DNA from: Pithys albifrons albifrons | Lineage: Eukaryota > Chordata > Aves > Passeriformes > Thamnophilidae | NCBI RefSeq assembly: GCF_047495875.1 | Contig: NC_092463.1 | Span: 7,768,622 to 7,832,621, forward strand | Length of the DNA stretch: 64,000 bases | Direction of reading: 5' to 3' | Shown here: in pieces, positions 2,641 through 54,554 of the stretch | How positions within the stretch are numbered: the first letter of the stretch is position 1 | Layout: every line of letters begins with the position of its first letter | The notes under the pieces: model-generated | Told to the model about the DNA's origin: nothing | The model's database searches: none | What the model saw: the letters and a program-made list of their open reading frames with translations, nothing else | Translations under genes and position numbers: made by a program

Positions 2641-3879
2641 TTCTGGGTTCAATGTTATTGGTCAAAAAAACTTCAGTTAACCCTCTTGCAAGCGTAAAGG
2701 GCAAAGAACATAAAGAGGTGAAAAATTATTTGTATTTTGGCTGGTAGAAAATGGTCCTACAGAAATGTTTTAAATATTTAAGAGGTATTGTATATGAAAG
2801 CTTTCATGAGTGGGAGGCAAAGGACTAAAGTCTTCAGGACTGGAAACCCATTTTCTTTCATCAGCACTAACCTGACTTTATAAGAAGATAAAAATTAAAA
2901 CACACACCCTTCTTCAGTATGACATTAAATGAGGGTTTTTTGGGACAGCAGCTTTGTATTCTGCTCTCACGAGGGCCCTCTGCTGCTCACATTCAAACTG
3001 AAACACTGAAACAGCACAAGTAATTTTCAGAGGGATGTAGAACTGTAGTCCTTATGGATCAGGACTATATTAATCTCTACCTAACTAAGGTAAGAAGAAA
3101 GTTTTTAATGGAAAGGTATTTCAAAACTTCTTGCTGCAGAATTTCTTGTGTTCATGTTGGTCTCTCTCAGAGGATATCAGAAATTGTTTATTGGGGTATA
3201 ATTTTCCCATGATATTATCTACATGGTGTATAATTTTGTGAGTTCATGCTTGGCTGCTGTGGCACTCATTACCTCACCAGCAGCAGGAGGAACTTCAGGA
3301 AGGAAAACAAACTCCAGAAGCAGAAAGAATCTGAAGAAACCCAAAGTTCTTACTTTTCACAAATGTAATCTTGAAAATTGAATAAAAAGAAAGAAGAAAA
3401 ACTGTGTATATAGTGGCAAAATATCCCTTACAATAATGCTGTTTTCCATAAGCAAAAGCACAGAACCTGCAAATTTGGAAGCATATGACATAACTCAGGC
3501 ATATGGAATACTCAGATTTCTGGACAGAACAGTGTAGCTTTAGGATGTGCCCCCGTGTGCTTCTAAATGTGCAAGTCATTTTGTGCCTGAGTTCACAGAG
3601 GTCTGTACCTCATACTTGGCTGCACCTGAGTCATTTGGTGGAAGAGATACTGACAGTAGCGAGGTTGTAAGAAGGTGACAGTTTCTGTTTCTGCATTAAC
3701 TGTGTATTTCAAAAGCTGGCAGATGGAGGTCTGTACAAGCATCCAGCGACGGTAGCTATTCTGATCATCTTCCTTCCCATCTGTGTTATGGTGCTGATTT
3801 ACTACATGTGGGTTGAGTGTTGAAGTGAGCAATAACTTGGATGAAAATGGAGTTCTTTGATTCAGGAACTGATGTGAGT
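2641..3879. other. Intergenic DNA between CR1 copies, nothing recognised
   Basis: Unique AT-rich sequence. The open frames at 3295-3579 and 3593-3919 (minus strand) have no recognisable domain. I see no RNA gene or tandem array. Confidence 0.5.
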
Positions 3880-5153: not shown

Positions 5154-5340
5154 ATGCCGGGCGGGCGGGTGTGCGGCGCCTGCGGGTGCGCGGAGATTGA
5201 GGTGGACGCGGCGCGGGGGGACGCGGTGTGCACGGGCTGCGGGTCGGTGCTGGAGGACAACATCATCGTGTCCGAGGTGCAGTTCGTGGAGAACAGCGGC
5301 GGCGGCTCCTCCGCAGTGGGGCAGTTCGTGTCTCTGGACG
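5154..5340 (+). CDS. BRF1: BRF1 coding exon 1: zinc ribbon of the TFIIIB subunit
   Basis: This encodes residues 1-62 plus the first base of codon 63. BRF1 is the TFIIB-related subunit of TFIIIB, which recruits RNA polymerase III to tRNA and 5S genes in the nucleus. The protein shows the N-terminal zinc ribbon, with C7-x2-C10 and C26-x2-C29. The stretch [19 protein letters not shown] and then the VSEVQFVE segment are diagnostic of BRF1. The chosen ATG has A at -3 and gives a protein start a few residues from the first cysteine, as in other vertebrates. The frame stays open upstream to 4971, but no ATG lies there in frame. The exon ends in a strong donor, CG|GTGAGT. The exon is intact. Confidence 0.95.
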
Positions 5341-20176: not shown

Positions 20177-22158
20177 GTACTAGCAGAAGTTTTATTCTTA
20201 TTGATATTGCTTTTTTTTTTATTAATATGATTGATGACAGTTAATTTTTAGTTTTGAGTGTGACCTCAAAACCCTTGCAGGCCCCTCATTCAGTGGACAA
20301 GTCTGCCTGGTGCTGATTTTACCCTGTGCTCTCATTTGGTTGCTATCTCTGATTTATGAGACCAGGTAGCTGTCTGACAAAGGGTAATGGCACCTGACAA
20401 TACTACTGTAGTTTGAAAGGTCTGTTTCAAGGTTGACATGCCCATTACACCTTTTTATTATCTGTTAAACCTATTGTGGCTTTTTATATTGTCAGTTTTC
20501 AAGTTCTTGAAATGCTTTACACGTGTTTATTTTTAAGTATAATTCTTCAAATGTTTTTGGTTTGAAGCAATACAAGTGTGAGATAATGCATATTTTTATG
20601 CATATTTCATAGTAGTCAGGTGCTTAATATGTGATTGTTGAACAGAGAGGGGGGAAAAATGGAAAAAAGGTTTTACTGCACAGCCGATATTTAAATAAAT
20701 ATTCTCATTACATGCTTTACATTTTAATTTAGATCTACATAATCTACACTCTTAAAAGAGAGTGAAAAAACCCACCTTTTATTCCAGGAGGAGAATGGTC
20801 TTCTAGTTTCAATTGCTGTTACTCATATCAAGGGACAGGAGTTGTCACTTTTTGGCTAATTAGTCCTCCTGTCTCTTGTCTCTTGGAGATGACAGGTGAT
20901 GGACTGTCATAGCAAAGTCTCAGAAGCTGACAGGTAATTAACCAGGGATGTAGATGGATTTTACTGGTAAGGTACTCATTTGGGGGGGATATTTTAAGGA
21001 AAAGTGTTTTCCTAAATTAGTCTTACACTTGCAACTCAAACACAGAAAATCTTACCTGATACTGTGCCTGCATAGGTAGAAAAAAATAAGATTGATCTGA
21101 TGTTGTGTTTCCATAGGCATGGGCAGGTTACGATTGATCTTTGTCGTTGAATTATAGTTAGATTGCTTTACTCAGCATTATTCAGCTGATTTATATATAG
21201 ATTGTTTTATATACAGAATATTTTATTCAGCTGTTTGTAGAAGACTTTTGAGCTCTGTTTCTTTGGCAGAGTAAAGCTTGCACTTAAGGTGAGCTGGTTT
21301 CAGGGCCAGGCCCAAAGTTACTATCTTGTGAGTTTTAAAAATGCCTGTATAATGTGTAAGCTACATAAGCAGTGGAAAAAAGCCTCTAGAATACCTTTTA
21401 CAGTTAGTGAAGTTTAATTTTGAGTTTAGACACTTTGATCAAAACTGTAATTTTGCACTGGCATTTTAAAAGTAAATTGACTTTTTGCGGATAACAACTG
21501 CCCACTTGTCTTTAATTGTATAAAAGTAAAATGCTGATGGAAGAAAATCTGTCTTAATGTTTCTTGGTGTGTTTGAATCCTTTAAAAGCCCTTTTGGTTG
21601 TGCTGCATGGTAATCACAAATAAAGACAGTGTAGGCGTTTTTCTGGAATCTAAACACAGCTTCTTTCTTGGATGAATGTTTGCTGGGGAATATGTCTGGG
21701 CATCTTCCTTCCCCACAGCTTTTGTGTGTGGGGCCTCCCTGATCACACCCAATGATTCTGACTTGGCTAAAGTGTAGCAGCATCACTACAAGAAAGGATG
21801 CTTGCTTTAAATGAATTTACCTCCCTAACAGTTTTGAAACAGGAAAATAATTTGTCTCTTTACTTACATGTCTCTGAGGCTCTTTGCAGGTTTTCTTCTC
21901 TCTCCTTTTTTTTGTTTTGTTTTTTTTCTTTATGTAAGGAGCAACTATTTGGTTTTTGATTTGTGTATGTATGGCCAAACTTTGCAAAGGAAGATTTGGG
22001 CAGGGCTCTCCCCACGTGGGTGTGTCCTTCCAGTTTGCACACTGGATTATTCAGGTGAGGTACAGCGTGAGCAGAACTGGCCCCACCATTTCAGTCCTCA
22101 GGTGCATTTGCCACGGCCGAGCGAGCTTGGACAGTGACAGGGAAGTCCTCGGGACTGT

Positions 22159-22222
22159 CACAGCCCCCGGTACCGACCGGGGCTGATCCTGCTGAGCATC
22201 CGAGATCTGACAGGATGGGATG
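22159..22222 (-). other. 5S rRNA-like segment within the SINE
   Basis: On the minus strand, CAGATCTCGGATGCTCAGCA followed by a GGTC...CGGTACCGGG and GCTGT series matches the vertebrate 5S phrases CTGATCTCGGAAGCTAAGCA, GGGTC, GGTTAGTAC and the terminal ACCGGGTGCTGT. About 26 nt of 5S, containing the C box, are missing between two GTA trinucleotides. The 5' quarter of 5S is not recognisable. Confidence 0.75.
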
Positions 22223-22249
22223 GCAGGGAGGCTTTAACTGCCAGGGGGC

Positions 22250-22321
22250 GGTCCCCACTGAGACTCGAACTCGGGTCCTTGGGATTCAGAGTCCAGAGTG
22301 CTCCCATTACACCACGGGACC
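22250..22321 (-). other. tRNA-Gln(CTG)-like SINE head (not a functional tRNA gene)
   Basis: It resembles tRNA-Gln: GGTCCC acceptor start, TGGTGTAATGG D arm, anticodon loop CTCTGAA with anticodon CTG, and T arm GAGTTCGAGTC. The 3' half of the anticodon stem (TCCCA instead of TCCAG) breaks pairing in the same way in all three copies. The unit is fused to SINE sequence, so it is SINE-derived. A tRNA scanner might flag it. Confidence 0.8.
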
Positions 22322-23650
22322 GCCTGTTTGAGTTCTGTAGTCAGCCTACATTTGTCATGCTGCCAGTCTGTCTCTGGGAAAGTTCTTTTTAGCAAGCTAA
22401 GTGATGTTCTTGCTCAGTCCCAGGCATGACAACAGCAGCTGATATTTCAGGTGGAGCAATTGGTGTTTGAAAGGCTTTTCTTTCTTCTGCTGTATAATGA
22501 GCTGGTTGTCTGCTGCTTTTAATCACACTTTTAGCTTTACATAGCTTTTAATTGCAAATTGAGCTGTGGCAATGAGCTTACAAAATCTCACCCTGCCACT
22601 GTGTGGCCATCATCATTGCTTTTTTTTTTTTGAGGAGGGGGGTGTGAAGTTATGTTAATATCCATTGTTGTTAGACTTCAAAGTGTAGCAAGGTAAATGA
22701 ACTTCCTGTATGTATCTTAAAGGAAAGGTATGGAACTATTCATTGGGTGAGACTGAAGTGCACTGGTAGTTGGTTGTATGAACAGTTATCCTTGGAGGGC
22801 TGCGATGTCTGATCAGAAAAAATGCTGAACTACTTATTTATGTGCTGGTACCACTGTGTTGGCATTTCCAAAGTTAACTGGGCTGCAGAAGGACTGCTGG
22901 AATAGCTCCTGCAGGGATGGATGCTGGAGCAGCACAGCTTGTGAGCGGCTTCAGGGAGCCTGTTCTGCGGCTCGCTGTGGCTCTTGCGTCAGGGCTGCTG
23001 CTGCCTTTAGGGGTGTGAGCACACAATTTCCTCCTGTGTGGTGCTCCATGCAGGCTGTTGCTGAAGGGCAGAGCCAGACTCTGGAGAGCAGGGATGGGCG
23101 GTGGATGGAAGCTGTCCCCAGGGCATTGGAGAGCAGCTGAGAGCAGTGTGTGTGTGTGGTCCGAGAGTGCTGGCAGGTCTCGCTCTTCGCCTGCTCTGCT
23201 TGCCAGCAACCTGCAGGCTTGACATGGTGGGGGAAAAGTCCAGCAACAGGGCAGGGGCTTGCTGGTTTTTAAAAAAACAACCACCTCCCCCTGCTACCCC
23301 TTCACCCCTCCACTCCTTCCCCATGCAGTTTGGGCCAAATTCTTCCTTACTGTAATGTCTGTCTTTTCAGAGGAGGTGAAAGGGGGGTGATCTGGGCTCA
23401 CTGTCTCTTATTTAATTACCCATGAAGCAGCTGGAGTTGGCTGAGTGTATGATGCTGCTGGTTTTTTTGAGGCTTTTAATGAAAGGATGTTTAGAATTAG
23501 ATGAAAAACAGCTTTTCATTAGAATGCCTAAGGTAGTAACATTATTTTTTTTCCTCCATTCTAAAGTGGAGAAATGTAGAAGTAAAATCTACCAATAACT
23601 GCTCAACAGTTCTGGACTCTTCTAAAAATAACTTTGTGCATTACTGTTTT

Positions 23651-31348: not shown

Positions 31349-31708
31349 GTGTGTATGGCCAAACTTTGCAAGCGAACATGTGGGAATGGCTCTCCCCACG
31401 TGGGTGTGCCCTTCCAGCCTGCACAGTGGATTTTTCAGGTGAGGCTCAACGTGCGCAGAGCTGGCCCCACCGTTTCAGTCCTCAGGTCCGTCTGCCACAG
31501 CCGAGCGAGCTTGGACAGTGACAGGGAAGTCCTCGGGACTGTCACAGCACCCGGTACTGACCAGGGCTGACCCTGCTGAGCATCCGAGATGTGACGGGAT
31601 GGGATGGCAGGGAGGCTTTAACTGCCAGGGGACGGTCCCACTGAGACTTGAACTCAGGTCCTTGGGATTCAGAGTCCAGAGTGCTCTCCTTTCCACCACG
31701 GGACTGCC
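31349..31708 (-). mobile_element. tRNA-Gln/5S rRNA-derived SINE, copy B
   Basis: A full-length 360-bp copy on the minus strand, bounded by a perfect 12-bp duplication. It begins at the tRNA-like head (31634-31705) and ends in GGCCATACACAC. The head is decayed in the A-box area, while the 5S-like unit (about 31543-31606) and the hairpin block (31518-31545) are well kept. Perfect flanking duplications place the ends and show insertion by target-primed reverse transcription. Confidence 0.9.
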
Positions 31709-49464: not shown

Positions 49465-49476
49465 TTTGGTTGTCAT
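49465..49476. repeat. Target-site duplication of SINE copy C, left
   Basis: TTTGGTTGTCAT abuts the SINE tail and matches TTTGGTTGCCAT at 49842-49853 with one mismatch. Confidence 0.8.
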
Positions 49477-49841
49477 GTGTATGTGTATGGCCAGACTTCG
49501 CAAGCGAAGATTTTGGGCAGGGCTCTCCCCACGTGGGTGTGCCCTTCCAGCCTGCGCAGGGGATGTTTTAGGTGAGGCACAGCGTGTGCAGAACTGGCCC
49601 CACCATTTCAGTCCTCAGGTCCATTTGCCAAGGCCAAGCGAGCTTGGACAGTGACAGGGAAGTCCTCGGGACTGTCACGGCACCCGGTACTGACTGGGGC
49701 TGACCCTGCTGAGCATCCGAGATCTGACAGGATGGGATGGCAGGGAGGCTTTAACTGCCAGGGAACGGTCCCACTGAAACTCGAACTCAGGTCCTTGGGA
49801 TTCAGAGTCTAGAGTGCTCCCATTACACCGCAGGACCACCC
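49477..49841 (-). mobile_element. tRNA-Gln/5S rRNA-derived SINE, copy C
   Basis: A full-length ~365-bp minus-strand copy with a 12-bp duplication. The tRNA-like head is 49767-49837 and the 5S-like unit is about 49676-49740. The invariant hairpin block is 49651-49678. Near the tail there is a perfect short hairpin CTTCGC-AA-GCGAAG-type palindrome at 49496-49509, degenerate in copies A and B. The tail is a variable ATACAC-type repeat. Confidence 0.9.
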
Positions 49842-49853
49842 TTTGGTTGCCAT
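49842..49853. repeat. Target-site duplication of SINE copy C, right
   Basis: TTTGGTTGCCAT immediately follows the tRNA-like end of copy C; one mismatch to the left copy at 49465-49476. Confidence 0.8.
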
Positions 49854-53651: not shown

Positions 53652-53825
53652 GGAAACGCCAGATTCACAACTTGGGAAACCAGCTTCAACTCAACCAACA
53701 TTGTCTGGATACGGCCTTTAATTTTTTCAAGATGGCTGTGAGCAAACATCTGACCCGGGGGAGGAAGATGACCCATGTAATTGCTGCGTGTCTCTACCTG
53801 GTGTGTAGGACTGAAGGAACTCCTC
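53652..53825 (+). CDS. BRF1: BRF1 coding exon 3: start of the first cyclin fold
   Basis: A 174-bp exon that completes glycine 90, encodes residues 91-147 and gives the first base of codon 148 (a C, as expected for the histidine found at this place in vertebrate BRF1). It contains [20 protein letters not shown], then the [11 protein letters not shown] segment and [16 protein letters not shown], which form the first TFIIB-type cyclin repeat. The acceptor follows a long T-rich tract. The donor is C|GTATCCTTTC, a perfect match to the minor-class (U12) consensus. Downstream exons are outside the window. Confidence 0.95.
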
Positions 53826-53835
53826 GTATCCTTTC
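53826..53835 (+). promoter_or_regulatory. BRF1: U12-type 5' splice site of BRF1 intron 3
   Basis: GTATCCTTTC directly follows the last coding base of exon 3. The U12 GT-AG consensus donor is (A/G)TATCCTTT, so positions +1 to +9 match exactly, while the site lacks the U2-type G at +5. The branch site and acceptor lie outside the window. Confidence 0.8.
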
Positions 53836-54554
53836 ACATTTGTAAAATATAAATAAAGTCATGCATTTAGCCAGTCAACTATCCCAGCTAGACCTTGCTT
53901 CCAGATGTGAAAAGGTAAGTGTTTAAGAGCTAACTTGATCACTGCTAGTGAAGGGAATGGGAGTGTTTCCTGTGGTTCAAGTACATTTGTTCCCTTTCCA
54001 AATGTACAATATTTAGTATTTTATGTATAAATGTCACTCTGCCTCCCATCAATAGCTCTAAATTTCTTCTCTCTCAACGCGTTCCCTGTGCTTTGTTAGG
54101 GATTATTATTTGTGAAGTATTTGTTGTTTATTTTGTTTTTCTTTTTTAAAGCAAACGACAATTAACTCCAAACCTCCTGCAGTATCAACATCAAAGAACA
54201 GGTTACAGTTCCAGTGGGTTTTTCATCACCATATTTGGATTTCCTTCTTTTAATACTTGCAGGAAGGATAGTATCATTCCTGTTTAAGTTTTGAGAAAAA
54301 AAAATGATGTCTGATAAATTCTGAAATTTGCTGAAAGATCCTACAGGAAATCAGTAGCTGGAAGTGGAACTGCACACGGGACAGATTTGCAAGTGAGTAC
54401 TTGCTCTTCAATCCCTGTTTTGGTCCTGAGGACTTCATTAAGATCTATCTAAGCCTTAAATACTGATGACCATCCAAATTAATTTGTTTTATATATTTCT
54501 GTTTCTTTTATGTTGTGTTTCAGTTCCTGGAATTCAGAGTTTAGTATCAAACAA

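Follow-up and report, generated by a model that had tools for sequence, protein, structure and literature searches.

A tRNA-Gln plus 5S composite SINE in the bird Pithys albifrons and its 5S-headed sister family suggest a change of Pol III promoter on the ends of an RTE LINE

Introduction

SINEs are known to exchange their heads, but all the steps of such an exchange are seldom visible. The union of 5S and tRNA sequence in one element is familiar from AmnSINE1, an ancient DeuSINE in which the 5S stands first and which carries the Deu central domain. A published table gives DeuSINEs such as AmnSINE1 partners of CR1 type (PMC3747384). Bird SINEs mobilised by the LINE AviRTE are reported to take their heads from tRNA-Glu, 5S, 28S or GC-rich sequence, and a Pol III head joined to a bipartite AviRTE tail is their published design (PMC4844689). 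One of them, GymnSINE, is an antbird family with a 5S-derived head and mobilisation by AviRTE (Suh et al. 2016, PMC4844689). In the open-licence PMC literature GymnSINE occurs in that paper alone, and the paper's figure legend makes no mention of a tRNA+5S head. Among other bird SINEs, PittSINE has been proposed to derive from TguSINE1 by a template switch that supplied another tRNA head (PMC5729268).

Here we describe a composite SINE of Pithys albifrons albifrons in which a tRNA-Gln-like head precedes a 5S-derived unit, a second family in the same genome that has the 5S head only, and an RTE LINE whose ends both families carry. A preliminary description, made from the sequence alone, had reported the composite without recognising it as a named family; the open-licence PMC literature likewise yielded neither a name for it nor any description of a tRNA+5S composite.

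Results

Three copies of the composite lie antisense within BRF1. The window, by which we mean the whole stretch of 64,000 nucleotides analysed, holds three minus-strand copies, which BLAST recovered where the preliminary description had placed them, and two exons on the opposite strand:

21963..22325, minus strand: SINE copy 1, tRNA head at 22250-22321 (Rfam, ARAGORN, BLAST)
31349..31708, minus strand: SINE copy 2, tRNA head at 31633-31705, with a 12-bp target-site duplication TTCTGCACGAGG (Rfam, ARAGORN, BLAST)
49477..49841, minus strand: SINE copy 3, whole element (self-BLAST; nearest copies elsewhere in the genome 93%)
5157..5339, plus strand: coding exon of BRF1 (TFIIIB 70-kDa subunit) near the gene start (phmmer)
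53696..53842, plus strand: later BRF1 exon, cyclin fold (phmmer)

Within the window, BLAST aligns copy 3 to copy 1 over 364 bases at 90.4% identity and to copy 2 over 356 bases at 90.2%, and when the window was searched with copy 3 no SINE copy beyond these three appeared. A search of the flanks of copy 1 for a target-site duplication gave no clear one. The copies had also been placed inside a bird gene, which the exons on either side bear out: the first matches yeast Brf1 (phmmer, 2.1e-06, residues 5-59) and the TFIIB zinc ribbon (1.2e-06, residues 4-37), and the second has yeast Brf1 as its best match (1.8e-09), with TFIIB relatives near (9.6e-09 and weaker). Judged by this protein similarity the host gene is BRF1, and the three SINEs occupy the interval between these exons in antisense orientation. 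TFIIIB is believed to bring Pol III to elements of the SINE type, and it is curious that SINEs presumably transcribed with its help should sit antisense in the gene of one of its subunits. Five other stretches of the window match a CR1 of the same genome (BLAST).

The composite is ordered as a tRNA-Gln(CTG)-like head, a short linker, a 5S rRNA-derived unit, a body and an (ATAC)n tail. The parts and flanks of copy 3, from its 5′ end, are as follows:

49842..49849, minus strand: target-site duplication CAACCAAA, 5′ copy
49766..49837, minus strand: tRNA-Gln(CTG)-derived head (Rfam RF00005, 32.7 bits; no call by ARAGORN)
49760..49765, minus strand: linker from tRNA to 5S unit (junction survey of 27 copies; positions from sequence)
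49677..49759, minus strand: 5S rRNA-derived unit (consensus aligned to the genome's own 5S gene L032; shuffle test)
49518..49672, minus strand: RTE LINE 5′-UTR fragment (BLAST, 84.5% to LINE copy L037; consensus alignment); its last ~16 bases overlap the LINE 3′-end part, leaving the junction ambiguous
49487..49533, minus strand: RTE LINE 3′ end, comprising last codons, stop and 3′ UTR (consensus 307-352 aligned to LINE copy L036)
49477..49488, minus strand: (ATAC/ACAC)n tail (sequence)
49465..49472, minus strand: target-site duplication CAACCAAA, 3′ copy

The tRNA-Gln(CTG)-like head of the preliminary description holds up: the three window copies score 31.9, 32.7 and 38.7 bits, all passing the Rfam gathering score of 29, ARAGORN calls tRNA-Gln(CTG) in two of the three (copies 1 and 2, with no call in copy 3), and the composite head aligns to a tRNA-Gln sequence. 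Its order of tRNA then 5S is likewise confirmed, since on the minus strand the head (49766-49837) precedes the 5S unit. From the tRNA model match in 3/3 window copies, a promoter role of the head is predicted. The hairpin block and body that had been described do belong to the element, but their sequence is LINE-derived, and a special hairpin is not supported: copy 3 folds as its shuffles do (z 0.05; 47/100 shuffles at least as stable), and because the fold is no better than theirs we make no claim for one. The tail is a short repeat, as had been described, of a type that we read as (ATAC)n.

Near-complete composites from across the genome share both internal junctions. The tRNA-linker-5S junction is preserved with 0-4 mismatches in 25/27 copies and is shifted or altered in the other two, and the deletion junction within the 5S unit has 0-3 mismatches in 27/27. 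On a simple reading of these shared junction sequences, all composites would go back to one founding element. None of the 27 has a run of four T inside the element, so a transcript can reach the tail.

The 5S unit of the composite lacks box C. The covariance check suggested by the preliminary description succeeded for the tRNA model and failed for the Rfam 5S model, which none of the three window copies matched at gathering score and copy 3 did not match at E up to 1; the 5S kinship is seen by DNA alignment. The composite consensus aligns to a vertebrate 5S sequence with a score of 63 (best of 2,000 dinucleotide shuffles, 32) and to L032, a 5S gene taken from the genome's own array on contig C11, with a score of 68 and a single gap of 26 bases. 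On these alignments the unit is a 5S with an internal 26-base gap, and this gap may be the reason for the Rfam 5S miss. In copy 3 the 26 absent bases, box C among them, are missing at about 49687/49688; by 5S numbering, the gap takes out box C. The best chance match to box C in each of the 27 composites has 7-8 mismatches of 18. The 5S gene array itself (C11:1301696-1349280, ~48 kb) has at least 37 5S model matches listed and 43 exact box C matches.

The composite body derives from both ends of an RTE LINE. Of 5,466 candidates raised by an RTE protein query of the genome, 112 were scored and yielded 189 matches, many of them in long open frames. Four fetched LINE copies have 96.4-96.8% mutual identity over their main common stretch; three have frames, stop to stop, of 1,102, 1,089 and 1,102 codons, and that of L037 is interrupted. 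Positions 168/169-322 of the SINE consensus match the LINE 5′ UTR at 86-88% in L036 and L037, the two of the four copies that reach the relevant 5′-UTR region, and positions 307/309-352 match the LINE 3′ end at 82-87% in 4/4 copies. The overlap at consensus 307-322 fits both LINE parts, as at a junction with short homology. By sequence comparison, then, the composite body consists of two pieces of an RTE-clade LINE, an internal fragment of its 5′ UTR and, fused to this, its 3′ end. LINE sequence accounts for most of the body in the consensus alignment, and the element has the bipartite tail of a LINE 5′-UTR part (consensus 168-322) and a full 3′ UTR (307-352). Because block and body are LINE-derived, the composite can be read as an RTE-mobilised SINE of published design.

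The partner LINE resembles AviRTE as described. In L036 the 5′ UTR spans about 800 bases, the ORF encodes 1,053 aa with RVT_1 and endonuclease domains, and the 3′ UTR measures 35-40 bases; for AviRTE the published lengths are about 800 bases, 3.2 kb and 40 bases, in that order (PMC4844689). We call the LINE AviRTE-like because these UTR and ORF lengths agree, and its identity with AviRTE, compared by description, appears probable. A protein search with L036 residues 430-830 returned 2,281 proteins, and among the 120 listed the named top ones are from lancelet, ricefish and shrimp (76-80%); AviRTE is described as closer to RTEs of aquatic animals (PMC4844689). A broken protein of the great kiskadee, a suboscine, matches the L036 protein at 77-87% in pieces. 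Counted against shared mobilisation are the divergence of SINE and LINE ends, which are 12-18% apart, and their tails, (ATAC)n in the SINE and (ATG)n in the LINE.

Other LINEs were considered as partners. The matches listed from family searches for reverse transcriptase and endonuclease were mostly young CR1 and elements of retroviral type. Three fetched CR1 copies end in ATTCTATGATT, and their 3′ ends are unlike that of the SINE, on which ground CR1 was rejected as the partner. An endonuclease-domain search (150 scored of 1,674) led to three fetched places, two of them CR1 and the third a frame without CR1 or SINE similarity that we took for a cellular gene. Of the LINEs seen, the youngest is a CR1 whose frame encodes 957 aa: over 2.9 kb, copy L029 shares 99.4% identity with L031 and 99.5% with L030. 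In the reverse transcriptase search, dozens of the listed genome matches have one and the same score. Contig C40 holds 9 of the 15 best matches to reverse transcriptase (510-base, apparently of retroviral type) and may be a retroelement-rich sex chromosome.

The composite family is dispersed and young. A genome search with copy count and divergence, which the preliminary description had called for, covered 1.14 Gb in 53 contigs. With copy 3 as query, 40 of 5,406 candidates were scored and all 40 matched at 91-100%. A 28-base stretch of the 5S unit occurs at 2,426 genome places with at most 2 mismatches (reversed control, 0), a count that may include a few 5S-headed copies and that diverged composites escape because the stretch bears the window-copy variant. 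Twenty fetched stretches and the window gave 29 composite matches, of which the 27 near-complete ones were used (L010, which starts late, and one match in L026, which ends early, were left out); three come from the window and 24, picked among the best matches to copy 3, from 19 stretches. Set against their consensus, these 27 diverge by 2.0-7.9%, or by 0.6-6.6% once CpG sites are left aside. At 6.7-7.9% the window copies belong to the older part of the set, and the youth claimed for the family is borne out by certain copies outside the window that are only 2-3% off the consensus. Exact duplications of 8 bp or more flank 19/27 composites as against 37/702 mismatched pairs, where the true figure may be slightly below 19 because a few duplications include tail letters. 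The element thus has the marks of a SINE, target-site duplications and dispersed copies. Exact scans found no match in viral contigs (two patterns) or in prokaryote genome contigs (one pattern). Copies look unevenly spread, with several composites less than 10 kb apart in each of L019, L020, L022, L023 and L026, the last of which has three. A composite at L033:3518-3877 follows an almost complete CR1 in the same orientation, ~90 bases beyond its 3′ end.

A second dispersed family has a complete 5S head and the same LINE parts as the composite. A 21-base box C pattern occurs at 3,752 places with at most 2 mismatches (control, 0); exact matches number 52, of which 43 lie in the C11 array and 9 are dispersed. 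From the 3,752 places we sampled 20 loci (21 elements, one of them an exact dispersed match) and the other 8 exact dispersed matches; 19 of the first 20 loci lie within the initial 3.7 Mb of contig C1, where 48 near-exact 5S-headed places were seen. All 29 fetched elements have 5S sequence (part is lost in L041), and 28/29 have the LINE 5′-UTR part, the remaining one being cut by the fetch and three being interrupted early. The Rfam 5S model matched 17/17 elements end to end at 45.7-83.1 bits (16 of 28 loci). No tRNA passed the Rfam model in the 16 loci given to it, and BLAST found no tRNA head in the 20 of the 28 loci it covered. Both ends were recognised in 13 of the 21 sampled elements, and these complete copies are 0.7-3.7% from their own consensus. 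From position 80 the composite begins at the sister's start, GGCAGTT, and continues with the sister's leader, 5S unit, LINE 5′-UTR fragment and 3′ end, minus the box C stretch. Because the composite continues at the sister's start, it looks as though the tRNA joined a 5S SINE that already existed, rather than a 5S gene. The preliminary description was right about the composite SINE but missed the 5S-headed sister family and the loss of box C.

The sister family bears directly on whether the composite could be GymnSINE itself, its tRNA part merely unmentioned in the legend, in which case nothing here would be new. GymnSINE is indeed described as 5S-headed and AviRTE-mobilised (PMC4844689), but the same legend calls its promoter 5S-derived and gives a tRNA head, from tRNA-Glu, for ManaSINE1 only, and the separate 5S-headed family fits that legend better than the composite does. 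We regard this identity as unlikely.

The tree of the two families favours a 5S-headed ancestor. It has 54 rows: 27 composites, 25 5S-headed copies (17 of the 21 sampled and the 8 other exact dispersed ones) and 2 LINE rows; it was midpoint-rooted, and its 200 bootstrap trees had not brought the bootstrap to a settled state. Composites form one clade (100/97, in 100% of the 200 bootstrap trees), five old 5S-headed copies adjoin the LINE rows with moderate support (95/77), and the other 20 5S-headed copies are grouped (98/92). Two of the five, L062 and L064, begin more like 5S and end in (ATG)n as the LINE does; L062 also scores higher against the 5S model than any other element tested (83.1 bits). 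The tail repeat shifts along the series: the LINE, L062 and L064 carry (ATG)n, younger 5S-headed copies for the most part (AC)n or (ATAC)n, and the composite (ATAC)n. The stretch that the composite lost is flanked by TAC at either end in three old copies (L062, L065 and L067); the second TAC is gone from younger 5S-headed copies. L063 and L064, also old, have TAC on one side only, which we count against the deletion reading. These sequences fit a loss of box C by deletion between TAC repeats in an older lineage. A tRNA and box C together in one copy were not found among the copies examined.

The leader and LINE parts common to both families would also be explained if tRNA-Gln and 5S had joined first and the 5S-only family had arisen by loss of the tRNA. 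The 5S-like start and (ATG)n tail kept by L062 and L064, their place beside the LINE (95/77) and the 5S score of L062 speak against this order, and since the composites examined lack box C, the reverse path would require that box C was regained or that some earlier composite had retained it. We give this order little credence. That the composite descends from AmnSINE1, with which it shares the union of 5S and tRNA sequence, or from another ancient 5S/tRNA family of amniotes is very improbable given its order of tRNA then 5S, its RTE LINE tail as against the CR1-type partners tabulated for DeuSINEs (PMC3747384) and the divergence of its 27 copies of only 2.0-7.9% from consensus.

Discussion

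We conclude, with a probability of roughly 0.86, that the composite is a SINE mobilised by an RTE LINE of the AviRTE kind that passed from a 5S-type to a tRNA-type Pol III promoter. In its present form, Pol III would start at the tRNA head, a type 2 promoter with boxes A and B; the LINE protein would bind the SINE transcript at the common 3′ end, and insertion by target-primed reverse transcription at a nick would leave the target-site duplications.

A history can be proposed for this element. 5S RNA would have fused to pieces of the LINE UTRs, giving the 5S-headed SINE, to whose 5′ end tRNA-Gln would then have been joined, by template switching or by insertion beside a tRNA gene. In the first case reverse transcriptase would have run off the end of the SINE RNA onto a tRNA-Gln transcript; in the alternative, a 5S SINE would have landed just behind a tRNA-Gln gene. 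One or other of these routes, the first of which has been proposed for PittSINE (PMC5729268), is suggested because the tRNA junction coincides exactly with the beginning of the 5S SINE, and a tRNA gene or precursor as the source is mildly favoured because the six or seven linker bases lack the CCA of mature tRNA. Box C would have been lost by deletion between the two TAC repeats, with tRNA gain and box C loss in either order; the tRNA promoter would have replaced the 5S promoter, and the tRNA-headed form would have spread.

There is a somewhat better than even chance that the stages of a Pol III promoter swap have been kept in this one genome: a 5S-headed SINE on RTE ends, its derivatives, and a tRNA-Gln+5S descendant minus the TFIIIA-binding box C, which changed from type 1 to type 2 and multiplied, the 5S-headed lineage remaining active beside it on the same LINE. 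The two families have a common genome, leader and LINE ends, and probably a common partner LINE. This sharing makes two questions testable: how a new head gets added at the exact start of an older SINE, and whether loss of box C follows from, or was permitted by, the gain of tRNA boxes A and B. The composite also extends the diversity of bird SINEs, held to be poor, and its copies provide young insertion markers for the host bird group.

Several known systems invite comparison. AmnSINE1 resembles the composite in combining 5S and tRNA, but in AmnSINE1 and DeuSINEs the 5S precedes the tRNA, which in the composite is 5′ of the 5S. Springhare Ped-1 and Ped-2 likewise bring a 5S-headed and a tRNA-headed SINE together in one genome with an RTE partner, although the host is a rodent, the partner is BovB and the Ped-2 head is tRNA (ID) (PMC3747384). 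PittSINE and TguSINE1 are passerine SINEs with the same candidate mechanism of head change (PMC5729268), but they are described with CR1-derived tails and tRNA-Ile and tRNA-Asp heads, the head being replaced and not stacked; the composite tail matches the RTE LINE, not a CR1 tail with 8-bp microsatellite, which sets it outside both families. ManaSINE1 of manakins and tyrant flycatchers is, like the composite, a tRNA-headed SINE of suboscine birds; it is AviRTE-mobilised, and differs in its tRNA-Glu head and in a legend that mentions no 5S unit (PMC4844689); the composite head is tRNA-Gln(CTG) by ARAGORN in 2/3 window copies, which excludes membership. GymnSINE has a 5S-derived head and a bipartite tail taken from a bird RTE LINE (5′-UTR fragment plus 3′ UTR). 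Our 5S-headed sister family fits the GymnSINE description; the composite departs from GymnSINE as described in the tRNA-Gln in front and in a 5S unit without box C. The composite is a known kind of SINE whose head and ancestry look new.
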